From positions 1 to 32,427 of the forward strand of contig CAJXNI010000029.1 in the NCBI GenBank assembly GCA_913057235.1: a DNA stretch of 32,427 nt. Direction: 5' to 3'. The DNA is from an uncultured Bacteroidota bacterium (GTDB lineage Bacteria > Bacteroidota > Bacteroidia > Flavobacteriales > Schleiferiaceae). Positions within the stretch are counted from its first letter, which is position 1; every line of letters starts with the position of its first letter. The position numbers were made by a program, and so were the translations under genes. This document shows, one piece after another, positions 1 to 32,384 of the stretch. The notes beneath the pieces are model-generated. The model ran no database searches. It was not told the DNA's origin and saw only the letters and a list, made by a program, of their open reading frames with translations.

Positions 1-443
1 ACATCTGTACCCACAGATTCACTCACGTACACGTTAGAAGCAACAAAAGTGCCCGTCATACCGGCAATTTCATCCAACACATTGGTTAGCAGATCATCAA
101 TATCACTGGCAACTATATTCCCGGCATCGGCTGTATAGGTGAAACTTGAGGAGATAACGGTAGTTCCGGTGTAGCCTAACTCATCGGCATAGCGGTTGGC
201 ATAATTAGCACCGCCCTCTACGTACCATACCACCTCATTAATGGCCCGGTCACCCAGGGATACTCCGTTTTCGTAATCGTCAATGAAGTCGCTTAAGGCA
301 TCCTCTACATTGGTGGGCGCCTCATAATCTTCATAGGTAGTACTACTTTTTAAAACCGTAGCCGGGTTTTCTTGCATGGATTCTTCTTTCTGGCAGGCCA
401 CTAGTGCGGAAATTGCCAGCAAAGTTAAAATTGATTTTTTCAT
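1..443 (-). CDS. Lipoprotein of unknown function, 3' end cut by window edge
   Basis: Reading leftward from an ATG at 443-441, an open frame of 147 codons runs off the window edge without a stop. The N-terminus MKKSILTLLAISALVACQKEE is a lipoprotein signal peptide with lipobox LVAC, so Cys17 would be lipidated and the protein anchored in the envelope. The visible part is acidic and rich in Asp, Thr and Val, with several Tyr-containing stretches; I recognise no domain. It is transcribed away from ilvE, and the terminator at 589-622 lies between them, so it probably has its own promoter. The lipoprotein call is firm; the function is unknown. Confidence 0.8.
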   Translation of the reverse strand, partial: MKKSILTLLAISALVACQKEESMQENPATVLKSSTTYEDYEAPTNVEDALSDFIDDYENGVSLGDRAINEVVWYVEGGANYANRYADELGYTGTTVISSSFTYTADAGNIVASDIDDLLTNVLDEIAGMTGTFVASNVYVSESVGTD

Positions 444-3560: not shown

Positions 3561-3568
3561 TACCTTTG
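3561..3568 (+). promoter_or_regulatory. -7 promoter box TACCTTTG directly before a start codon
   Basis: TACCTTTG fits TAnnTTTG exactly and ends only 5 bp before the ATG at 3574. With the usual distance to the start site, transcription would begin at or next to the start codon, giving a leaderless or nearly leaderless mRNA. No good -33 box is visible, so the site is moderately supported. Confidence 0.45.
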
Positions 3569-3573
3569 TGTTT

Positions 3574-5565
3574 ATGCAGCGGTGGCGCCTATTATTTAAA
3601 GTTTTATCCTTTTGTCTTTTTGGGGCCTTTGCGCCTCAACTTGGGGCACAGCAGTTTTTTCATGCTTCCTTTCAAGGCCTAGGCCCGGGTCAACCACCAG
3701 CGGTGGTGCATTTGCCTAATGGCGATGTGGTTCAGGCCTTTCTAAGAGGCGCTGGCACCCAAGAGCTTACCCTGGTTAAAACCGATGCCTGCGATGAAAT
3801 ACTTTGGTCAAAACGTTTGAGCACGCCTCAAACCCCCAGCCGCCTCATAAATATGGTGGCGCATGAAAATGAAATTTACCTGGCGGTGGTTTTAGGTCCC
3901 CAACTCCCCGATTCCAGCTTGACGCTTTTTAAATTTACGACTGCCGGAAACCTGGTTTGGAGTCAAGAGCTGAAGGGCCCACCCATGTACTGGTACAGTC
4001 TGGGTATTAATGAGCAGGGGTATTTATTCTTGAATGGCAATAGCTCAAGCAGCGCTTCATTGGCCAATGTAGTGGTGAAGCTAGACCCTACGGACACTAT
4101 TTTTTGGAGCAACTCTTATACGCAAAGGCAAATCTGGGGCATGGGTGTGCCCGATAAAAATGGCGGCTTCCTGAAACTCACGGGCAATGTGGCCTATTTG
4201 CTAGACGCCAATGGTCAGCCGCAATGGATCCAAAATTACGATGCCGGTTATCAATCGGGGATTTCTCCGCTAGTCTTAGATGACGGCTTTGTCATCTTCT
4301 CCACCACCACCGCTGGTCAGAATCAATCGCAGGCCTACAAAATTGACCTCAATGGCAATGTAGTTTGGAGCAGTCCCGCTTTTTCAGGGAGCTTTTTTAG
4401 TGATGCTATTTTGCTTGAGAATCAAGAAATCCTCATTGCCAGTTCCGGTGCGGGTCCTGCCTTTGACCAAACCCAGCTGCTTTGGCTAGATGCCAGCACT
4501 GGCGCGGTGAGCAACAGCAAGTGGATACCGCCTAACAGCCAAGCTACTAACCAACCTACCCTTTCAAGCAACGGCCAGGGCCATCTGTTTTTGCATAGTC
4601 AATTGGCTACGGCTACCGCCACCAACGTAGATTTTCTACGGATTAAACCACAACTTGTAGGCACCGAGGCATGCCAATGGCAAAATGCCAACCTCAACAC
4701 AAGGAATGAGGCAGTTACGGCCTTAGGCAACGTGTCCTTACCGCCTATGCAAGCGCTGAGTTTTAACCAAGAACCGGTAAACGCCAGCCTGCAAAACGCC
4801 ACCGTGGCCATGCTGAAGGGCTGCTCTAATGTGCCTCAGCCAGAAGATATTGAGCTGGGCAACGACACTACCCTGTGCCCGGGTGAAACCCTGGTGCTGA
4901 ACCCTAACCTTACGGTAGAAGGCAGCTACCGGTGGAGCAATGGTCAGCAGGGAGCTAGTCTTACCGTAACCCAAGCAGGCCGCTATTGGCTGGAAGTAGA
5001 GCCCACTTGTGGTCAAGCCTTTTTTAGTGATACCATCCAGGTTGACTTTTACGATGGCATGGCGCCCCAAATTTTAGCCGATCAATTTCAGTATCAATTG
5101 GGTGAAACGGCCGCTTTTACCTTACAGAACCTGCCCGACACCACCGTTTTCTGGCAAAATGCCTTTGGAGACACCAATCGTGGAAACAGCTGGAACCTGG
5201 AACTTTCTAAACCGGGCCAGCAATGGGTAAAGGCCTGTTGGTACAGCCCTGCCTCTTGCTTACTGTGCGATTCGCTGTCCTTTAGCGTTGAAGCGCCTCA
5301 GCTACAATTGCCCAATGCCTTCACGCCCAACGGAGATGGGCTCAATGATTTTTTCGGTCCGGCCGATGGCGCTTTGGTGCACTACGATTTGTGGGTGAAA
5401 GATCGCTTTGGAAAAACCCTTAGCTACACCCAGAATCATCCGTGGAATGGGGATGTAAAAGGACAAAGAGCTTTGGGTGGCGTGTATGTGTATGAATTGC
5501 ACTACCAAATCTACAGGGGCCAACCCACCCAGGTTTTAGTGGGAAGCTTTACTTTGCTGCGATGA
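3574..5565 (+). CDS. Secreted protein with T9SS type-B C-terminal sorting domain
   Basis: A 663-residue exported protein. The start has a Sec signal peptide (MQRWRLLFKVLSFCLFGAFA, then APQLGAQ). The N-terminal two thirds contain repeating short blocks with Trp and Gly (such as GNLVWSQELKG, DTIFWSNSY, GNVVWSS), suggesting a beta-propeller. A domain with DTTLCPGETLVLNP and YRWSNGQQG (about 425-480) is an Ig-like module common in such proteins. From about residue 580, LPNAFTPNGDGLNDFF and the following 80 residues form the type-B (gliding motility-associated) sorting domain recognised by T9SS. The ATG at 3574 was chosen over an in-frame GTG at 3568, which lies inside the promoter box. The stop overlaps the next ATG by 4 bp, so translation is probably coupled. 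Substrate and role are unknown. Confidence 0.87.
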   Translation: MQRWRLLFKVLSFCLFGAFAPQLGAQQFFHASFQGLGPGQPPAVVHLPNGDVVQAFLRGAGTQELTLVKTDACDEILWSKRLSTPQTPSRLINMVAHENEIYLAVVLGPQLPDSSLTLFKFTTAGNLVWSQELKGPPMYWYSLGINEQGYLFLNGNSSSSASLANVVVKLDPTDTIFWSNSYTQRQIWGMGVPDKNGGFLKLTGNVAYLLDANGQPQWIQNYDAGYQSGISPLVLDDGFVIFSTTTAGQNQSQAYKIDLNGNVVWSSPAFSGSFFSDAILLENQEILIASSGAGPAFDQTQLLWLDASTGAVSNSKWIPPNSQATNQPTLSSNGQGHLFLHSQLATATATNVDFLRIKPQLVGTEACQWQNANLNTRNEAVTALGNVSLPPMQALSFNQEPVNASLQNATVAMLKGCSNVPQPEDIELGNDTTLCPGETLVLNPNLTVEGSYRWSNGQQGASLTVTQAGRYWLEVEPTCGQAFFSDTIQVDFYDGMAPQILADQFQYQLGETAAFTLQNLPDTTVFWQNAFGDTNRGNSWNLELSKPGQQWVKACWYSPASCLLCDSLSFSVEAPQLQLPNAFTPNGDGLNDFFGPADGALVHYDLWVKDRFGKTLSYTQNHPWNGDVKGQRALGGVYVYELHYQIYRGQPTQVLVGSFTLLR

Positions 5566-6755: not shown

Positions 6756-9700
6756 TTACTCTTTGGTAATCTTGTAGGTCCTTCGTCCTAACTCGCCAAA
6801 ATCTAGCGTTATAAAATAAAGTCCTGGGGTTAGGGCGCTTAAATTAATCTGCTCTATAGATGTACCCTTCCAATTGATTTTGTCTCTTACAACTAATTGA
6901 CCACTATTATTAAGAATGGTGTAATCTGATGCCCCATAAAAACCTCCAGAAAAGTTTACAGTAAGCTTTTCATTTACAGGCTGGGGATACAAACTAACAT
7001 TACTCAAAACAACTTCTGCAGGAATGCCAGAGCCTTCCGCTACATCTTCCGCTCTTTTGTAATTAAATCCGGCAAAATCTATATCACATTGCTCGGTTAA
7101 ATAACCAAAATCTTCAATGCCAATGGTTTCATCGTACAGTTGCTCTTCGGCATCACATATACATTCCCAGTATTGGGCGCGCATGCTTTGGGTATTGTTG
7201 AAAGTCCAGTTAGTGTAGTTACCAAAAAGCGCCATGGCTTGTGAGTAATTACCCGCTACCCGGTACACTTGCGTTTTATTTAAGGTATACCTAAAAATGG
7301 CATTCTGGTCATTACTATCAATATCGCTCAATGAATCTAATTCATTGTCTAAAATATTAATAAAGCGCTGCACTTCTGGTAACACAGCTCCCCCCTCAGC
7401 ATGGGTTAGTTGTTCATATTGGAAGCTGTTTTCAAGGGCGCTCATACTGGCGCCAATGGCCATGTGTCTTAAGGGATGGTAAGAAGCATCTCTATTTGTG
7501 AAGGTTGCTTCTAGCAAGTCCATTAAGTCTACATAGGCCGACAAATCATCAGCTTCATTCTCGGTAAAAGTAATATTAGCCACGGCATTGCTTAACCCTG
7601 TTTTAAAGTTGCCAATTGAATAGGGACCATCGCCACCTACCCCGCTTTGCATGGTAATAGGGGTTTGCATAGGGTGCTCTAATTCCAAAACTGGATTATC
7701 GCAATCGGTATTGTTTTGAAAATTATTTTGGACACTGAGACTTAAAGCAGACGTAGTGTTATTAATACCGAAACGAACGGGAAAAGTCCAACCGCGGTCT
7801 GAGCTATGTTTCATTGGCATTTCATTAAAATCAGCATTTACAGTAGTGGAATTAAGATAATTGGTGAGCAAGCCGCCACCTTGGGTGCGTCCGCTAATAT
7901 ACCACGAGCCATTGGTGCCTAGGTTAAATTTATTGTGACCTTCTAATAAGTAGATACCCGTTTCGGTAGAATTACCGTCATAGAGGATTCCTACATTATT
8001 ATTAATAAATTCATTACCAGCATCTTCATCTAGGTAAAGAATGCCGTCCCAAATATTGATGCCCACATCATTGTTGAGTAACCCTGAACAAGTTACTCTT
8101 GCGTCAACGCCAACCATGTCTATACCGTTACCTGAGCCTGCGCTGTGGTCTTTAATGGTTGTGGCGGTAATATTAACCAAAGCTCCGTTTTGGCTGCTTA
8201 AACCTACACCTAGCCAGCCATTGCTACCAGCAGTTACTTGGCAGTTACCAAGGGTAGAGGTGCCTGACAAAGCACTACCTACTACCCCCCGACCATTGTT
8301 GTTGAGCTGATTGTTGGTTATTTGAAAATTGCCACCATTTACGGATATACCTGTTGTATTGTTAGTAAAATGAGAATTTCGTATTTGTATGGCAGGGCCT
8401 CCGCCTAGCCAATCGGCCATTACCCCAAAGTTGCCATTGGAAAAACTACAATTATTAAATAAAGCCCCTGCGCCATTTCCATTCCAAATTCTAATTCCTG
8501 CATGTTTACCGCCTCCGGTTGAGTTTACGGTAATATGGTGAAAATCGGTTTTACCGTAAAAATACATCAGTGCGCCAGGGGCTAAGTCAACCGCGCCATA
8601 GCGCATGTCTACTTCTGTAAAAGTATTGTTATTGCCGTCTATAAAATAAACGGGCTTGCGCACTTCTACCAACTTTTGGGTGAAAGGGGGAGTACCAGCC
8701 GGACCGCTTAAATCTAGTTTGGCGTTTGCGCCAATTTCCATATAATCGCCAAATTGAAGAGAAGTACCATCAAATACTTCTTGATCAAATATTACTTTAC
8801 CAATGCCTGTGAAAGTGAAGGTAGCATTGGCTAAAACGTTCAGCTTTCCTTGAACTACAAGTTCTGAACTTAAAGTGTTTAGTTGTAAATCAGCAGTGCT
8901 TTCATAAATAAGCTTACCGCCATCTTCTACTATTATTTGGCTTGAATTAATTTGAGCTTCATCGGCTATTTTTAAAACACCTCCGCTTTGTACATAAAGT
9001 TTTGAACCAGGGTTTATTTTTAAAAGCCCCCCACTATTTAAGTTTACTGTAGCTCCTTCCCCAATAAATAAATAGGCGGTATTACTTTGTACTGGATCTC
9101 CTAAATGCATTTCGCCCCCTTGGTTTATATTCAAGGTAAGATTTGAACCGCAGCTGCCACCAAGAAAAACTCTTGCTAAGCCGCCCGTTTCATCAAAATT
9201 AGCTGGATCTCCCGCTGGTAAATCATAGCGCGGTAAATTTGCATTTAAGTACAGGCGGCCGCCTTGATTTATATCTTGCCCGCCTAAGGTACTCACCACT
9301 AGTGGTACATTCCAAGTTTTAGTTAATGCACCGCCTTGTTGGGTTAATAAACTGGTACCGTTTACTATTTGATTCCATAACCAAGCCGTATTGCCACCGC
9401 CTGGGCTGGTGGTAGCCATAACATGCTCTTTTTCATCAACATCAGAATGGTAAGCATCAAAATGGGTGAGGCCGCTATTACGAGGATTAAACTCATCAAT
9501 TCCATTTGGACCGGAGATATCAAAATTTAAGTTTGATGTATTAATAGCCAAGGCCGAAATGGAAGGTATAAAATTCGCATAAGCTTGTGGCATATTTACT
9601 GAGCCAACTTGGCCGCAGACAGGCAGAAAGAAACTGTTAGCGGCCAGCTCATCGTGTATTCCTCTTTTAATAGCTGTGCCAAGGTCTTCCACATCGTATC

Positions 9701-11615
9701 TCAAAGACCCTGGTGCGTTGTCTAAGTTTCTTTGCCCAGTAATATAAGTACGCTCCCATTTTTTACCTGGCTTATCCAAGCTCGTAACTAAATTATCTGC
9801 CCTACCATTACTGTGCACATCAAAACGCATGCGCAGAAAAACGGGGTAGTTTCTAATACCTAAAAAGGTGGCCCAACAAGTAATGGTTTTGTCATATTGG
9901 GTGAAGGAACTACCGTTTCCAAAGAGATTGCTGCCATCGTCATTGCCGTTCACTAGGGCTACATTTCGGCAATTTTTGGGATAATTGCCCAGTGCCATAA
10001 CCTCAGCTTGAAAAGCATCATAATGCGGATCACTAGACTTTTTGATATTTGCAGGATAGGATATGTGGCGATATTTTTTTCCGCTGTTTTCTGAAACTAC
10101 ACCTAGGTTTTGAGTCCAGTGCCACAGCAGAAGTTGTTTTGAGGCAGGTGTGTTTAGGGAGGCTAGTTTCTCGTCTGCTTCATCATCATTGCTATCCCAG
10201 CTGGAGACTCTTTTTAAAAACCATTGTATGCCTAAAGGCACATGTGCGCCCTTCCACGGACTGTCAAAAGATGCAAATAACCGTGTACAATGCTCTGGCC
10301 CATACTTTTCCATGTGGGTAAGAGCATAACGGGCTACTTGCCCACCCATACTAGCGCCAATTACAACGTTTTGCTCTTCACCTAACTTGTAATAATTTAT
10401 TTGTTCAATTAGGCCCGCTAAAAGCAGTCCGTTTCGTTGCATATAATCGGCACCATCCATAAAATCCAACATAATAATGTCATATCCTTCATCATGTAAG
10501 TCGGTAAGAAAATTGGGGAAGTTTTCAAAAGGGTAGTCGTCTGGTTGACAATTCCATAAAGTAGGCCAACCCGCACTCCCTAAATGAATAGACTGAGTTT
10601 GAGCTCGGCCATCGCCAGGCACAGCTCCCCCAAAGTCAATACCTTCTACAATTATAAGTGGTTTCCTGAAGTGATTTTCTTCACCCGGTGCTATATCTGG
10701 TCGGTACCATACATAGGCATTACCCAAGCCTTTTATGCCGTTCCAAGCCGAAATGTGTTGTGGTGGTAATAAATACTGAAAGCTATTGTTATTGATTAAG
10801 GTGCTACCCCAAGGTCCAGTTACCGGGAAAGGCATATCACCGCAACCAAGCGTTGTAACCACCTGCATTTTGGTGTAAAGTATGCCAGAGTTTTGGGTAT
10901 TCATTTTTATGCTCCATAGCAATGTATCTTCTGCTGCGCCATAAAGTACTTTAACCACTTGGTCAAAATTTATTGTTCTGAAGCCTAGATCGTCTCCAAA
11001 ATCTATTTCTAAACTTATAATGCTATCGTCTAAATTGCTAAACACAAGACTACTTGGAAACACAAAAGGAAGTGTATCAGCATAGGCTAAATTGTTTAAA
11101 TTATTGCCAGACCCCACCGCAAAAAAGCGTTTCTTTTCTAAAAAGTTATTACTGCCGTTTGGATTGGGAATAAAGTTGCCTGAGGCATCTAATAACAGTG
11201 TGCTATCGACAAAGGCAGTTTGCTGCACTCTATCGTATTCAAAATAATTTAGATAAATAGGAGTAGCGTCAAACTGGGCATACAGCGCTTGTTCTTGTTT
11301 CACCAAACTATCAAAGGGCGGGATTATGTTGGTATCATTGAGAGCTCTGTCTACCAATTGTAGTAAGCTTCGGCCTGTTTGGCGGCCACCAACGCCTGGG
11401 CTATCATTAAACCCCTGAAATTGATCCCAGGCGGTTATAAGATTTACCCTGTCTAGCAGCATATTGGTTTGCCTTGAACTACTACTATCAATGTGCTGCA
11501 ATGGGTTATCGCTTAGCAAGCTATCGGGCACTTGCCAAGTTAAAGGTAAGTATTGGGCAAAGCTACTAATGCTTAGGCTCAGGCTTATTAAAATTAGGCT
11601 TACTGCTTTTTTCAT
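6756..11615 (-). CDS. Giant secreted serine hydrolase with beta-helix region and T9SS type-A signal
   Basis: A 1619-residue exported protein. A Sec signal peptide (MKKAVSLILISLSLSISSFA) is followed by an N-terminal region and then an alpha/beta-hydrolase core: KPLIIVEGIDFGG, DEGYDIIMLDFMDGADYMQ, and the nucleophile elbow VIGASMGGQVARYAL with Ser422 as the likely nucleophile. Candidate acid and His residues lie in VNGNDDGSN and in the His-rich stretch around LTHFDAYHSDVDEKEHVM. Residues from about 850 to 1350 are Gly/Asn-rich short repeats (NNNTGISVNGGNFQ-like) typical of a right-handed parallel beta-helix. The last 80 residues (SLYPQPVNEKLTV to YKITKE) are a type-A T9SS sorting domain. It may be a cell-surface lipase, esterase or peptidase; substrate unknown. 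It stands alone, with its own terminator at 6703-6730. Confidence 0.85.
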   Translation of the reverse strand: MKKAVSLILISLSLSISSFAQYLPLTWQVPDSLLSDNPLQHIDSSSSRQTNMLLDRVNLITAWDQFQGFNDSPGVGGRQTGRSLLQLVDRALNDTNIIPPFDSLVKQEQALYAQFDATPIYLNYFEYDRVQQTAFVDSTLLLDASGNFIPNPNGSNNFLEKKRFFAVGSGNNLNNLAYADTLPFVFPSSLVFSNLDDSIISLEIDFGDDLGFRTINFDQVVKVLYGAAEDTLLWSIKMNTQNSGILYTKMQVVTTLGCGDMPFPVTGPWGSTLINNNSFQYLLPPQHISAWNGIKGLGNAYVWYRPDIAPGEENHFRKPLIIVEGIDFGGAVPGDGRAQTQSIHLGSAGWPTLWNCQPDDYPFENFPNFLTDLHDEGYDIIMLDFMDGADYMQRNGLLLAGLIEQINYYKLGEEQNVVIGASMGGQVARYALTHMEKYGPEHCTRLFASFDSPWKGAHVPLGIQWFLKRVSSWDSNDDEADEKLASLNTPASKQLLLWHWTQNLGVVSENSGKKYRHISYPANIKKSSDPHYDAFQAEVMALGNYPKNCRNVALVNGNDDGSNLFGNGSSFTQYDKTITCWATFLGIRNYPVFLRMRFDVHSNGRADNLVTSLDKPGKKWERTYITGQRNLDNAPGSLRYDVEDLGTAIKRGIHDELAANSFFLPVCGQVGSVNMPQAYANFIPSISALAINTSNLNFDISGPNGIDEFNPRNSGLTHFDAYHSDVDEKEHVMATTSPGGGNTAWLWNQIVNGTSLLTQQGGALTKTWNVPLVVSTLGGQDINQGGRLYLNANLPRYDLPAGDPANFDETGGLARVFLGGSCGSNLTLNINQGGEMHLGDPVQSNTAYLFIGEGATVNLNSGGLLKINPGSKLYVQSGGVLKIADEAQINSSQIIVEDGGKLIYESTADLQLNTLSSELVVQGKLNVLANATFTFTGIGKVIFDQEVFDGTSLQFGDYMEIGANAKLDLSGPAGTPPFTQKLVEVRKPVYFIDGNNNTFTEVDMRYGAVDLAPGALMYFYGKTDFHHITVNSTGGGKHAGIRIWNGNGAGALFNNCSFSNGNFGVMADWLGGGPAIQIRNSHFTNNTTGISVNGGNFQITNNQLNNNGRGVVGSALSGTSTLGNCQVTAGSNGWLGVGLSSQNGALVNITATTIKDHSAGSGNGIDMVGVDARVTCSGLLNNDVGINIWDGILYLDEDAGNEFINNNVGILYDGNSTETGIYLLEGHNKFNLGTNGSWYISGRTQGGGLLTNYLNSTTVNADFNEMPMKHSSDRGWTFPVRFGINNTTSALSLSVQNNFQNNTDCDNPVLELEHPMQTPITMQSGVGGDGPYSIGNFKTGLSNAVANITFTENEADDLSAYVDLMDLLEATFTNRDASYHPLRHMAIGASMSALENSFQYEQLTHAEGGAVLPEVQRFINILDNELDSLSDIDSNDQNAIFRYTLNKTQVYRVAGNYSQAMALFGNYTNWTFNNTQSMRAQYWECICDAEEQLYDETIGIEDFGYLTEQCDIDFAGFNYKRAEDVAEGSGIPAEVVLSNVSLYPQPVNEKLTVNFSGGFYGASDYTILNNSGQLVVRDKINWKGTSIEQINLSALTPGLYFITLDFGELGRRTYKITKE

Positions 11616-28862: not shown

Positions 28863-28891
28863 CAAAGGTACTGTTTTTCTTTTAGATACAA
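28863..28891 (-). promoter_or_regulatory. Promoter of rpsA (TTG -33, TACCTTTG -7)
   Basis: TACCTTTG (28870-28863, minus strand) fits TAnnTTTG; a TTG at 28891-28889 lies 18 bp upstream, close to the -33 box. Transcription would start near 28856, leaving a leader of about 115 nt before the rpsA ATG. Confidence 0.7.
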
Positions 28892-29007
28892 GATGTTGGA
28901 TGCGAGATGTTGGAGGTTGGATGTCCGATGTTTGGTGTCGGATGTTTAAAGACTGCCGCTTAAGTTAACACCTCCAAATCTGCGGACTGTAAACTGCGGA
29001 CTGTAGA
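28892..29007. repeat. Short imperfect direct repeats in the gap between rpsA and the VOC gene
   Basis: 28892-28947 is built of variants of GATGTTGGAT (GATGTTGGAT, GATGTTGGAGG, GGATGTCCGATGTTTGG, GGATGTTT). 28980-29007 has CTGCGGACTGTAAACTGCGGACTGTAGACT, an 11-base unit repeated with 3-base spacers. The stretch 28871-29021 is otherwise empty of genes and of a recognisable RNA. Confidence 0.7.
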
Positions 29008-29021
29008 CTCTACATTAGGTC

Positions 29022-30083
29022 CTAATCCTTTACCCTACTCCAGCCCATGGTGTTGATCATCCAGCGGGGCAGGGGCTTAGTGGCATCGCGTTTTTGCAGG
29101 TTTAAATACCAGTTCAGTTTTTTCAGGATGGGCACTTTGTGGGTTTCTACAAATTCCAGCAAGGTGCCATCGGGATCTTCAATGTAGGCAAAGCGTCCGG
29201 CTGCTTCCCCCATGTCAAAGCTCTCAGCTGAATCTACCGTAAAGGGATGGCCTAAGTCGGTTAAATGCTTTTGCAGAGCATCCATACCAATGGTGTCAAA
29301 GCAAAGATGAATGTAGCCCGGGTCGCCCCAAAAGCGATCTTTGTACAACTGCTTGGAGCTTTTGCCCTCTACCTGAATCAGCTCTAGCTGAGCGGGACCC
29401 AACAAGGGTGAAAAGGCCCCTTGATAAGGCTCAGCTCGCTCTAAAATCACCCGTTGGTACTGACGGGGCTCATCGTCCCAAAGGGCTAAATCTTCCAGCG
29501 CGCCTTTTTCTTGAAAAATCACTTGCGAAAAGCCTAAAGCTTGCTTGTAAAACTCCATGCTTTTTTCCAGGTTACTCACCCCTAGCGCGGCCCCGGCCAC
29601 TCCGCCAAACAAGCCGCCTTGATTTTTATACCAGGCATCAAAATAGGTGATTTCTACCACGTTGTTGTGGAGATCACGCAAGTAAAAATGCGAAGGGCGT
29701 CCGTAGCGGTATTGCACTTTGCCCAAAAGGTTTAAGCCCTTTTGCTGGCAATGGCGGTAGGCTTGCTCCACATCGCGGGTTTTTATTTTTAAGACGCCAA
29801 TGCCTAAATCTCCCGGACGGGAAAGACTTTCGGGCCAAATCAATTCGCGTTGGGTGTACTGCCAGATTTCCAGACCGCCCCCGCCATTCATGTTTAGCGC
29901 CAATACGGCCTTACGGGCGTGCTTTTCGCCTCCCGTGTAGGGCAACATCAGGCCGGCCTCGGCTTCTTCTTCAAACACCGGGGTATCAAAGCCAAAATTT
30001 TGGCGGTACCATTTCCAGGTGGCGTCTGTATTGGGGTTGCCAATGCCTATTTGCTGAATGCCGCTAAAGTGAAAGGCGCTCAT
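29022..30083 (-). CDS. Two-domain VOC (vicinal oxygen chelate) family protein
   Basis: A 353-residue protein with two VOC modules, about residues 5-150 and 160-320, each of the glyoxalase/extradiol-dioxygenase fold. In module 1 the usual His at the first strand is absent (FSGIQQIGIGNP, Gln10-Gln11), and module 2 begins AALGVSNLEKSMEFY, also without His. Module 2 does keep YIHLCFD and DPDGTLLEFVE, positions often used for metal binding, and module 1 keeps VVEITYFD. So metal binding may be reduced or shared. Its start overlaps the preceding oxoamine-synthase gene by 4 bp, so it is the third gene of a tight operon. Family VOC is certain; the reaction is unknown. Confidence 0.88.
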   Translation of the reverse strand: MSAFHFSGIQQIGIGNPNTDATWKWYRQNFGFDTPVFEEEAEAGLMLPYTGGEKHARKAVLALNMNGGGGLEIWQYTQRELIWPESLSRPGDLGIGVLKIKTRDVEQAYRHCQQKGLNLLGKVQYRYGRPSHFYLRDLHNNVVEITYFDAWYKNQGGLFGGVAGAALGVSNLEKSMEFYKQALGFSQVIFQEKGALEDLALWDDEPRQYQRVILERAEPYQGAFSPLLGPAQLELIQVEGKSSKQLYKDRFWGDPGYIHLCFDTIGMDALQKHLTDLGHPFTVDSAESFDMGEAAGRFAYIEDPDGTLLEFVETHKVPILKKLNWYLNLQKRDATKPLPRWMINTMGWSRVKD

Positions 30084-31324
30084 GCGATTTTGCTTTCAGT
30101 TTGGGCGTAGGCTCCCTGGGTAAGCTTAGCGCGGATGGCTTTAAATGCTTTCAAAGTCAATTCTACATCTTCCAGCGTGTGCGCTGCCGTGGGAATTAAA
30201 CGCAATAGAATCTCACCTTTCGGGATAACCGGATAAATTACAATGGAGCAAAAAATACGGTGGTTGTTGCGTAAATCGGCCGTGAGAGCCATAGCTTCTT
30301 GCACGCTGCCTTTTAAGAATACGGGGGTTACGCAGGAATTGGTAGCGCCAATTTCAAACCCGGCTTCTTTTAAGCCGCCTTGCAAAGCGGTTACATTCTG
30401 CCACAGCTTGGCACGCATTTCGCTTTTTTCTTTGAGCAGCTTTAAGCGGTATAAGTTCCCTTGCACAAAAGGCATGGGTAAACTTTTGGCGAAGATTTGC
30501 GAGCGCATGTTGTAGCGCAAAAAGTCCATCACTTTTTTAGGCCCCGCTAAAAAGGCGCCTATGCTGGCCATGCTTTTCGCGAAGGTGGCAAAGTAGATGT
30601 CAATTTCATCTTGCACGCCCTGCGCCTCGCCTGCCCCTGCACCGGTTTCACCCAGGGTGCCAAAGCCATGGGCATCGTCTACCAATAATCTAAAGTTGTA
30701 GCGGTCTTTTAGCGCCACTATTTCCTTCAACTTTCCCTGGTCTCCTTTCATGCCAAAAACGCCTTCGGTAATAACCAATAAAGAGGCGTTGGGCGTGCTG
30801 AGCCATTTTTGGGCGCGCTCCAATTGCTCCTGAAAGTGGGGAATATCATTGTGCTTGTAGGCCAGCGATTTGCCATTGTGCATGCGCAGCGCATCCATGA
30901 TACAGGCGTGGCACTCGGCATCATACACCACTACATCATGGCGGGTAACCAGGCTGTCAATGGCGCTCATTATGCCTTGGTAGCCATAATTGAGCAATAC
31001 GGCTGACTCTTTATTCTCTAAGGCAGCTAGTTCTTCTTCCAGTTGATTGTGATATTGGGTTTGGCCGGTCATCATGCGCGAACCCATAGGATAGGCCAAA
31101 CCCCATTCAGCAGAAGCTTTGGCATCGGCTTCAATCACTTCGGGTAAATTGGCCAGGCCTAGATAATTGTTCACACTCCACACAATGTGCTCTTCTCCCT
31201 TAAAGCCCATGCGGTTGCCAATGGGGCCTTCCAATTCCGGAAAGATGAAATAGCCTTCTGCTTCTTGTTGATATTGCCCCAGCGGGCCGGGGTTGTTGGT
31301 GATTTTCTCAAATAAGTCAGTCAT
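30080..31324 (-). CDS. Alpha-oxoamine synthase, likely cysteate fatty acyltransferase (capnine) or serine palmitoyltransferase
   Basis: A 414-residue PLP enzyme of the alpha-oxoamine synthase family (fold type I) that condenses an amino acid with an acyl thioester. Seen: NNYLGLANLPEV, YPMGSRMMTGQTQYH, ECHACIMD with His139 placed to stack on PLP, DDAHGFGTLGETGAG with Asp216 and His219, and the Schiff-base Lys250 in FATFAKSMASIG. In Flavobacterium a relative with a FAKSM core is reported, from memory, to make 3-ketocapnine from cysteate and acyl-CoA and to support gliding. The gene follows the CysK-like gene with an 8-bp overlap, so its amino-acid partner is plausibly made by that neighbour. 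Use of serine instead cannot be excluded. Confidence 0.85.
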   Translation of the reverse strand: MTDLFEKITNNPGPLGQYQQEAEGYFIFPELEGPIGNRMGFKGEEHIVWSVNNYLGLANLPEVIEADAKASAEWGLAYPMGSRMMTGQTQYHNQLEEELAALENKESAVLLNYGYQGIMSAIDSLVTRHDVVVYDAECHACIMDALRMHNGKSLAYKHNDIPHFQEQLERAQKWLSTPNASLLVITEGVFGMKGDQGKLKEIVALKDRYNFRLLVDDAHGFGTLGETGAGAGEAQGVQDEIDIYFATFAKSMASIGAFLAGPKKVMDFLRYNMRSQIFAKSLPMPFVQGNLYRLKLLKEKSEMRAKLWQNVTALQGGLKEAGFEIGATNSCVTPVFLKGSVQEAMALTADLRNNHRIFCSIVIYPVIPKGEILLRLIPTAAHTLEDVELTLKAFKAIRAKLTQGAYAQTESKIA

Positions 31325-32324
31325 GTACTTGTTTTTCTACAACAGGTTCTTTTTCCAATAAATTATTTTGCTGCATCCACTCATCATTGTAAATGGTTTG
31401 CAGGTAACGGCTGCCATGGTCGGCACAAATAACCACGGCACAATCATCAGCGCCTATTTCTGCTTGTTTTTGCCGGGCTACCTGTAGGGCGGCACCACTG
31501 CTGTAACCCATTAACAAGCCCTGCTTGCGGGCGGCTAAGCGCGCCATTAAGGCGGCATCCTGATCGCTTACCTTTACAAATTCATCAATCAAGTCAAAAT
31601 CCAGGGTTTCCGGTATAAACTTTTTACCTACGTTTTCGGCCAGGTAGCTTTTTACGCGGCTGGCGTCAAACACCCGGGTTTGGTGAAAATCGGCTAGAGC
31701 CGAGCCATAGGCATCTGCGGCCCATACTTTGAGCCGGGGATTTTTTTCTTTGAGGTAACGCGCGGTACCGGAAATGGTGCCCCCCGTACTGGCCGAAGCT
31801 ATTAAGTGGCTCACCTGCCCCTGGGTTTGTTCCCAAATTTCGGCCCCGGTGGTGCTATAGTGACTGTTAGGGTTTTCAGGGTTTACGTATTGATTTACCC
31901 AATAGCTATTAGCTATTTCTTGATTAAGCCGGGCCGCCAACCCATGAGAGGACTGCGGATGCTCGCGCGGATATTTTTTATCACTCAAGTGGACCTCGGC
32001 TCCGTAAGCCTCTAATAATTTTATTTTCTCTTTAGAATGGCCGGTGTGCATGCAGCAAATAAAACGGTAGCCCCGTTCTGCCGCTAAAATGGCCAGGCCA
32101 ATTCCGGTGTTTCCTGAGCTGCACTCAATCAGCGTTCCGCCTGGTTTTAGATAACCTTGCGCCTCGGCATGGTTTACAATGCTTAAGGCGATACGGTCTT
32201 TGATGGAAAGGCCGGGGTTCAGGTATTCTATCTTGGCCAAAATGGGCTGCCGGGCAAAGAGGTTGGGTAAAGTGGCCAGCGGGGTGTGACCAATACTAGC
32301 ACTAAGCGGTGAAAACCTGGGCAT
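31317..32324 (-). CDS. CysK-family PLP enzyme, likely cysteate synthase
   Basis: A 335-residue fold-type II PLP enzyme of the cysteine synthase family. Lys42 in EYLNPGLSIKDRIA is the Schiff-base Lys, SSGNTGIGL at 69-77 binds the substrate carboxylate, TGGTISG at 180-186 holds the PLP phosphate, and MGYSSGAAL is near the end. Normal cysteine synthases make Cys from O-acetylserine and sulfide; relatives in sulfonolipid makers make L-cysteate from O-phosphoserine and sulfite. The neighbour downstream, an oxoamine synthase, would use cysteate. The ATG at 32324 was chosen because the open frame's earlier start at 32384 lies upstream of the probable promoter. Confidence 0.83.
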   Translation of the reverse strand: MPRFSPLSASIGHTPLATLPNLFARQPILAKIEYLNPGLSIKDRIALSIVNHAEAQGYLKPGGTLIECSSGNTGIGLAILAAERGYRFICCMHTGHSKEKIKLLEAYGAEVHLSDKKYPREHPQSSHGLAARLNQEIANSYWVNQYVNPENPNSHYSTTGAEIWEQTQGQVSHLIASASTGGTISGTARYLKEKNPRLKVWAADAYGSALADFHQTRVFDASRVKSYLAENVGKKFIPETLDFDLIDEFVKVSDQDAALMARLAARKQGLLMGYSSGAALQVARQKQAEIGADDCAVVICADHGSRYLQTIYNDEWMQQNNLLEKEPVVEKQVHD

Positions 32325-32353: not shown

Positions 32354-32384
32354 CTAAGGTAAAGCATGGCTTTGGCACCACCAA
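32354..32384 (-). promoter_or_regulatory. Promoter of the CysK-like / oxoamine synthase / VOC operon
   Basis: On the minus strand TTG (32384-32382), 20 bp, then TACCTTAG (32361-32354), one base off TAnnTTTG. It lies 29 bp before the ATG at 32324 and gives a leader of about 23 nt. Confidence 0.45.

Follow-up and report, generated by a model that had tools for sequence, protein, structure and literature searches.

The stretch of DNA analysed here (the window; 32,427 nucleotides) is the complete contig C29 of a 2.83-Mb genome from an uncultured Bacteroidota bacterium of the family Schleiferiaceae. It carries a sulfonolipid-type locus of three genes, and the question pursued below is what the third, a VOC protein gene, contributes to sulfonolipid synthesis. 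Re-reading of the frames in the window placed all three genes on the minus strand, with each pair overlapping. The first gene, at 31317..32324, encodes a CysK-like protein of 335 residues from its ATG, a candidate CapA-like cysteate synthase of Pfam family PF00291; the frame also contains a TTG further upstream, at 32384. The second, at 30080..31324, encodes an alpha-oxoamine synthase of 414 residues (PF00155), identified below as a cysteate fatty-acyltransferase (CFAT) of the CFAT/CapB/SulA family. The third, at 29022..30083, encodes a two-domain VOC protein of 353 residues, matching PF00903 in two stretches. The first and second genes share 8 bp (31317..31324) and the second and third share 4 bp (30080..30083), both overlaps likewise on the minus strand. 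A model given the letters and open reading frames alone (the sequence-only reading) had proposed these genes as a probable capnine operon with the VOC protein as a candidate new function, and its coordinates, overlaps and family calls all agree with the re-read frames and the Pfam assignments.

The single promoter that the sequence-only reading placed before the operon stays a conjecture. A simple promoter pattern of the Bacteroidota type is absent from the 103 bp between the contig end and the CysK-like ATG, and across the window it matched five times against 2.48 expected, no clear excess. Because the contig ends so close to the first gene, the operon may include further genes upstream. None of the three operon genes is a short-chain dehydrogenase/reductase (SDR), the contig stopping just upstream of the first; an SDR homologue of 268 residues is encoded on contig C40 of the source genome. 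The same three-gene order is found in another genus (genome G007, locus L022), where the VOC gene is broken by a contig end. Since gene order is conserved, as this triple and as SDR-CFAT-VOC or longer orders elsewhere, a chance arrangement is excluded.

The second gene product was compared with solved structures by phmmer. Its top match is PDB 28eh, named 'Cysteate-C-fatty acyltransferase' (E 2.2e-169), followed by a full-length match to 7u7h, SulA (E 3.9e-164), with the serine palmitoyltransferase 3a2b far behind (E 8.1e-63). The 7u7h enzyme comes from Alistipes finegoldii; its Lys281 stands where serine palmitoyltransferase has an alanine, and is required for activity (PMC9304779). By position, the CFAT codon for Lys280 (30485..30487, minus strand) corresponds to this Lys281, which sets SulA apart from serine palmitoyltransferase, and the codon for Lys250 (30575..30577, minus strand) corresponds to the pyridoxal phosphate lysine, Lys251 of SulA (PMC9304779). 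A lysine at the SulA-281 position is present in 78/78 CFAT copies of at least 300 bits, a count in which overlapping loci enter more than once, and in one further copy of 291 bits; in five paralogues with lower scores, Asn or Ala takes its place. Membership of the second gene in the CFAT/CapB/SulA family is well supported, and by family its product is predicted to form 3-ketocapnine from cysteate and an acyl-ACP. Serine palmitoyltransferase, KBL and BioF were ruled out by the models, the structure matches and Lys280. The sequence-only reading had named a synthase falling among the serine palmitoyltransferases as a result that would overturn it; the E-values and Lys280 exclude that case.

The first gene product lies between two known types. 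Its best NCBIfam model is the CapA cysteate synthase model NF053679, at 357 bits with a cut-off of 600, followed by cystathionine beta-synthase (CBS) at 338 bits, also below cut-off, and by cysteine synthases at 216-302. One of eight other CapA/CBS-type proteins passes NF053679 (653 bits) and seven score 393-548, including the source genome's own CBS at 481; with seven of eight below 600 the cut-off is narrow, and under it CapA and CBS are not separated. In a tree with E. coli CysK and CysM as outgroup, the protein pairs with its G007 counterpart and joins the CBS group (support 95/98), far from CysK and CysM. A place among the O-acetylserine sulfhydrylases, another result that would have told against the sequence-only reading, was thus not seen. 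In the outgroup-free tree one split separates all CapA-like proteins, that of the window included, from CBS (99/97), and another holds the window protein, the G007 counterpart and CBS on one side (100/99); branches are long, and whether the protein falls on the CapA or the CBS side depends on the root.

These scores, the rooted tree and, in the outgroup-free tree, a place along the branch that joins CapA to CBS would all fit a short CBS-like enzyme, with cysteate coming from another gene or from uptake, and so would the protein's 49% identity to the source genome's own CBS, compared with 43-47% to the CapA-like genes, CFAT-linked or short, of six family genomes (G003, G012, G021, G027, G030 and G039). 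We consider this rather unlikely in view of three observations. The gene precedes CFAT with an 8-bp overlap, the position that CapA-like genes take at many loci; the source genome's 457-residue CBS (L213) has a C-terminal part that is missing from the first gene product; and among family genomes without CFAT, full matches come in the long form, with frames of at least 453 residues, except for one 333-residue frame in G002. Short second CysK-like copies were found in 9/12 family genomes with CFAT, together with a contig-edge piece in G036; G015 and G017 have the long form of match only. As a query the protein matches in 55/60 family genomes, widely hitting CBS, and because of this broad matching its presence is not simply scorable. 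By its context the first gene is likely a cysteate synthase, placed between CapA and CBS. Of the pair of capnine enzymes proposed from the sequence, the synthase stands, as CFAT, and its CysK-like partner is not a clean CapA.

The distribution of the VOC protein was followed in three genome samples. In 60 genomes of the family (VOC matches with E up to 1e-10, CFAT up to 1e-60), VOC is present in 12, and CFAT in exactly those 12 and in 0/48 others (Fisher 7e-13); counted by genus, the figure is 7/19 (2e-5). In 392 Bacteroidota genomes of at least 90% completeness (VOC up to 1e-20, CFAT up to 1e-100), searched with a VOC profile built from the family's VOC proteins, VOC is present in 51 and CFAT in 148, and all 51 VOC genomes carry CFAT. 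By genus these are 25/179 and 66/179, with a hypergeometric probability of 4.5e-13 if genera are independent. In one large Bacteroidota family (f25), VOC occurs in 35/47 CFAT genomes. The genome survey suggested by the sequence-only reading thus finds VOC going with CFAT in three samples and two phyla, the third sample being the spirochaetes described next, and finds the two genes adjacent in 3/12 family genomes (G000, G007 and G036). The SDR was tried as a third tracked trait and was not counted as evidence, its profile matching in 59/60 family genomes. The VOC-type SDR scores 352-419 bits in 11/12 VOC family genomes (289 in G017) and no higher than 332 in the remaining 48, a soft gap with a profile built partly from these genomes' VOC neighbours.

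The third sample comprised 247 genomes of the spirochaete phylum, to which G452 belongs, searched with a profile from 50 broader relatives (VOC up to 1e-20, CFAT up to 1e-90). VOC was found in 9/247, four of them distant at about 200 bits, and CFAT-like matches in 11/247, including all nine. The two CFAT-like genomes without VOC are G507, with a good CFAT that has the lysine, and G486, with a weak match that lacks it. The SulA lysine is present in 10/11 CFAT-type rows of spirochaete loci, two of the rows being the same gene; the weakest, that of G486, has Thr, and the G486 match is probably not a CFAT. Each genome that supplied one of three spirochaete VOC loci also carries a CFAT-like match (431-480 bits); G452, one of these genomes, belongs to the 247 as well. 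In G456 a single contig, at least 2.9 Mb long, carries both VOC and CFAT, which speaks against a binning error there. In G452 and G453 CFAT stands beside an archaeal-type cysteate synthase (497 and 414 bits; TIGR03844 cut-off 324.9), and in G699 (L250) a protein with 40% identity to the archaeal-type cysteate synthase neighbours VOC and CFAT. Spirochaete CFAT loci were seen at L170, L176, L178 and L233-L251, some of them beside an archaeal-type cysteate synthase. A ketopantoate-reductase-like gene adjoins the spirochaete CFAT at L242, L243, L245, L248 and L249; the assignment (PF02558/PF08546) was confirmed in L242 and L249 and is by similar start only in the others. This protein could be an alternative 3-ketocapnine reductase.

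Gene neighbourhoods were read from a VOC profile scan of public genomes, which confirmed at least 568 places. The best 80 of these were kept, and 79 remained for counting after L146, which has no clean VOC frame; the counts that follow apply to these best 80. Marivirga, Balneola, Phaeodactylibacter and Carboxylicivirga are among the names of the records that carry VOC. A reductase of the L012 SDR type (at least 150 bits) lies on the VOC strand at 42 loci, in 38 of them within 300 bp of VOC and in some overlapping it, and CFAT (at least 250 bits) lies on the VOC strand at nine. With a cut of 100 bits, SDR is adjacent in 38 of the 79 and near in nine, CFAT is found in nine and CapA in four, and any of the three is found in 49/79. 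VOC is coupled tightly to CFAT or SDR genes, with overlaps down to 8 and 4 bp. The order SDR-CFAT-VOC is found in G123 and G217. In L101 and L134 the genes CapA, NAD-epimerase, SDR, CFAT and VOC stand in a row, and L106 has the same row with one more gene; the SDR of these three loci is more distant, 31-33% identical to the reference SDR.

The gene between CapA and SDR in these rows is of the NAD-dependent epimerase/3-beta-HSD type (L101 2343-3329, L106 2050-3033, L134 2312-3295), and the L101 protein belongs to PF01370. A BLAST cluster of this protein type was noted in 11 named loci among the best 80, and a protein resembling it precedes VOC in L019. In G313 and G278 CFAT makes up the C-terminal end of a fusion protein about 1,100 residues long, and VOC follows it (fusion genes at L174 1646-5077 and L175 2571-5897). 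By eye, the N-terminal part of the fusion resembles an acyl-adenylating enzyme or ligase and is followed by a carrier protein. Such a CFAT-carrier fusion beside VOC suggests channelling of the acyl group.

The VOC protein scores 60.1 bits against PF00903 (cut-off 20.6), and an AlphaFold model built from 50 sequences has a mean pLDDT of 93.2. The best full-length fold match is 4huz, 2,6-dichloro-p-hydroquinone 1,2-dioxygenase (Z 24.5, root-mean-square deviation 3.0, 275 residues aligned), followed by 3oaj, a putative Bacillus dioxygenase (Z 23.2), 1zsw (Z 23.0), maize glyoxalase I (Z about 22) and GLOD4 (Z 19-20). Single-domain methylmalonyl-CoA epimerases reach Z of about 11 (133 residues at Z 11.3), in an alignment that reaches both ends of the model. 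These rank lists report folds, not functions.

Four metal ligands are predicted, all encoded on the minus strand. Gln11 (30051..30053) and Glu72 (29868..29870) lie in module 1, and His259 (29307..29309) and Glu310 (29154..29156), the last a possible base, lie in module 4. Among 118 distinct VOC sequences, Glu72, His259 and Glu310 are present in 118/118 and Gln11 in 117/118, the remaining sequence having His, so that the set reads Q-E-H-E in 117 and H-E-H-E in one. In weak matches (E 0.015-0.036), Gln11 and Glu72 align with a His and a Gln of methylmalonyl-CoA epimerase, whose alignment to module 1 has an E of 0.036, and His259 and Glu310 align with the His and the Glu after the DPDG motif of FosB; the aligned residues of both enzymes we take to be metal ligands. 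The position in module 3 equivalent to the ligand His is Gly164 in 118/118. With the intact ligands split over modules 1 and 4, one metal site would be complete only if these modules meet, and in fused glyoxalases the metal site is assembled in this module arrangement. Pairing of the modules by sequence was tried and dropped, the composite of modules 1 and 4 scoring 24.9 bits with curated VOC models, no better than the 27.2 of the contiguous C-terminal half; the proposed pairing follows from the split of the intact ligands and the fold alignments, not from the composite score. Single-domain VOC proteins can be aligned with the contiguous halves too (for example 3..150, Z 10.6; 158..315, Z 9.7). 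Four arginines, Arg57, Arg79, Arg211 and Arg250, are conserved in 117, 115, 118 and 118 of the 118 sequences, and could hold a sulfonate.

The zinc ligands of human glyoxalase I are Gln33, Glu99, His126 and Glu172 (PMC8849047). The VOC protein shares this Q-E-H-E set with the human zinc enzyme and matches the fold of the fused two-domain maize enzyme over the full length, and it differs from glyoxalase I in its low identity (16-17%), in scoring far under the cut-off of the curated model, in its conserved arginines and in its lipid-pathway context. Methylmalonyl-CoA epimerase resembles it in fold and, weakly, in ligand alignment, but is a single-domain enzyme acting on a CoA thioester, and its model TIGR03081 gives the VOC protein 23.2 bits against a cut-off of 114.95. 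The closest full-length folds (Z 23-24.5) are those of ring-cleaving dioxygenases, which we presume to be of the PcpA/LinE and MhqO types; from these the VOC protein differs by a Gln at the first His position and by an additional invariant Glu.

As VOC was found only in those sampled bacteria that have CFAT, it is probably a missing part of the sulfonolipid pathway. Co-occurrence and linkage make its participation in that pathway highly probable, and the CFAT co-occurrence in three samples lends support to the core of the sequence-only reading, a capnine operon with VOC as a candidate new function. Our tentative preference, judged from sequence, is that the locus is a capnine operon in which VOC serves as an accessory enzyme, a metal-assisted epimerase or isomerase acting at C2 of 3-ketocapnine. 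The CysK-like enzyme would likely make cysteate, and CFAT would join it to a fatty acyl group to give 3-ketocapnine. VOC would then move a proton at C2, setting or repairing the stereochemistry, and a short-chain reductase would convert 3-ketocapnine to capnine after VOC has acted. The chemistry, metal-assisted proton transfer adjacent to a carbonyl, is suggested by the glyoxalase-type Q-E-H-E site drawn from the first and last of four modules, and is put forward far more cautiously than participation in the pathway. 3-Ketocapnine would be a natural substrate because it is an alpha-aminoketone with an acidic C2 hydrogen; that it is the exact substrate is more doubtful again than the chemistry. 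CFAT with reductase gave two reduced products, interpreted by the authors as epimers (PMC11211663). Two presumed epimers raise a stereochemical question at this step and would make an epimerase step meaningful.

Several observations weigh against this preferred reading. CFAT occurs without VOC in 97/148 Bacteroidota CFAT genomes, and a capnine-like compound was made in E. coli by CFAT and reductases with no VOC added (PMC11211663); together these indicate that capnine as such does not require VOC. Ring-cleaving dioxygenases (Z 24.5 and 23.2) are among the nearest full-length folds, beside glyoxalases (Z 22), and none of the curated isomerase or epimerase models scored the VOC protein over its cut-off. 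The four distant spirochaete relatives (L238-L241; 28-32% identity), which are not part of the 118 sequences, align as H-E-E-E, perhaps a variant site or an alignment fault. At 30/79 VOC loci no SDR, CFAT or CapA lies within the flank examined. In the family, VOC and CFAT are more than 100 kb apart on one contig in 2/12 genomes (G003 and G027) and on different contigs in 7/12, which in draft assemblies does not prove distance. Finally, species within the samples share ancestry, and the p-values given above are too small.

Other roles for the VOC protein were weighed as well. An iron-dependent tailoring oxygenase or lyase, hydroxylating or cleaving the capnine base or its keto precursor to give a lineage-specific sulfonolipid, would be in keeping with the dioxygenases at the top of the fold list (4huz and 3oaj) and with the presence of VOC in just 51/148 CFAT genomes, as a tailoring step would predict; RIF-1-type sulfonolipids, which bear extra hydroxyls and a double bond, are known. 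Oxygen-activating VOC enzymes, however, hold their metal by two His and one carboxylate. In 117/118 sequences the first metal position is Gln rather than His, a mismatch with the triad of extradiol-type VOC dioxygenases, and Glu72 is an invariant fourth ligand. Records under the names Spirochaeta, Draconibacterium and Carboxylicivirga carry VOC too, and these live as strict or facultative anaerobes. We judge a tailoring oxygenase unlikely.

The metal site itself, identical to the zinc glyoxalase I set, would suit a glyoxalase-like repair enzyme that clears reactive dicarbonyls arising from oxidation of 3-ketocapnine. Aminoketone products of related enzymes oxidise to dicarbonyls, and lactoylglutathione lyase profiles match the VOC protein weakly. 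Such an enzyme appears less likely still than the oxygenase: the glyoxalase I model TIGR00068 gives 25.7 bits against a cut-off of 120, the 97 CFAT genomes lacking VOC do without it, and neither a glyoxalase II-like nor a thiol-cofactor gene stood out among the neighbours at the loci, though no search was aimed at these. The lowest probability goes to a non-catalytic partner that tethers CFAT to the reductase or passes on the intermediate. The gene overlaps and the ligase-carrier-CFAT fusion next to VOC in G313 and G278 favour such channelling, but the near-invariant ligands and conserved arginines point to catalysis, and VOC and CFAT are not next to each other in 9/12 family genomes.

The described sulfonolipid route consists of cysteate synthase, CFAT, reductase and N-acylation. 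Like CapA-CapB-CapC of Capnocytophaga and Cys-CFAT-KCR of Chryseobacterium, the window has a CFAT/CapB-family gene with a CapA-like gene alongside. It differs in that the SDR homologue of the source genome lies elsewhere, on C40, in that its first gene is not a clean CapA, and in its VOC gene, which is absent from the available descriptions of those systems (PMC10191378, PMC11211663). With Alistipes the likeness is in SulA, which the window CFAT matches over its full length with the Lys281 equivalent kept; for Alistipes and Odoribacter the reported cysteate synthase is of the archaeal type (PMC10191378), in place of which the window has a CBS/CapA-type gene. SPO1287, described as a glyoxalase/bleomycin-resistance protein, is in the gene groups unique to roseobacter producers of SAL, a different sulfur lipid (PMC8319176).

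Elsewhere in the window, short degenerate repeats, gatgttggatg and ctgcggactgtaaactg among them, were seen by eye at 28880-29015, between the VOC gene and a neighbour resembling ribosomal protein S1. Large proteins with type IX secretion signals, typical of Bacteroidota, are encoded at 6756-11615 and 3568-5565 (Por_Secre_tail; CHU_C).

The pathway and the fold are known, and the link between VOC and sulfonolipids is new as far as the literature was searched. The literature covered gave neither VOC proteins nor glyoxalases a part in capnine synthesis, in agreement with the sequence-only reading that no capnine step is assigned to a VOC protein; most subscription papers and the original CapABC paper were outside the coverage. 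Sulfonolipids are abundant in the membranes of gliding Bacteroidota and are reported to affect inflammation, and a sulfonolipid factor triggers multicellular development in choanoflagellates (PMC10191378). Bacterial sulfonolipids are described as apparently confined to Bacteroidota (PMC10191378), a restriction that the spirochaete gene sets call into question. The boldest form of the proposal, that VOC founds a new family of metal-dependent 3-ketocapnine epimerases or isomerases working with the reductase and that sulfonolipid synthesis reaches the Spirochaetota, is somewhat unlikely in its entirety. Confined to CFAT genomes in three samples, the VOC family is a strong candidate for a step of sulfonolipid synthesis that has so far been overlooked.

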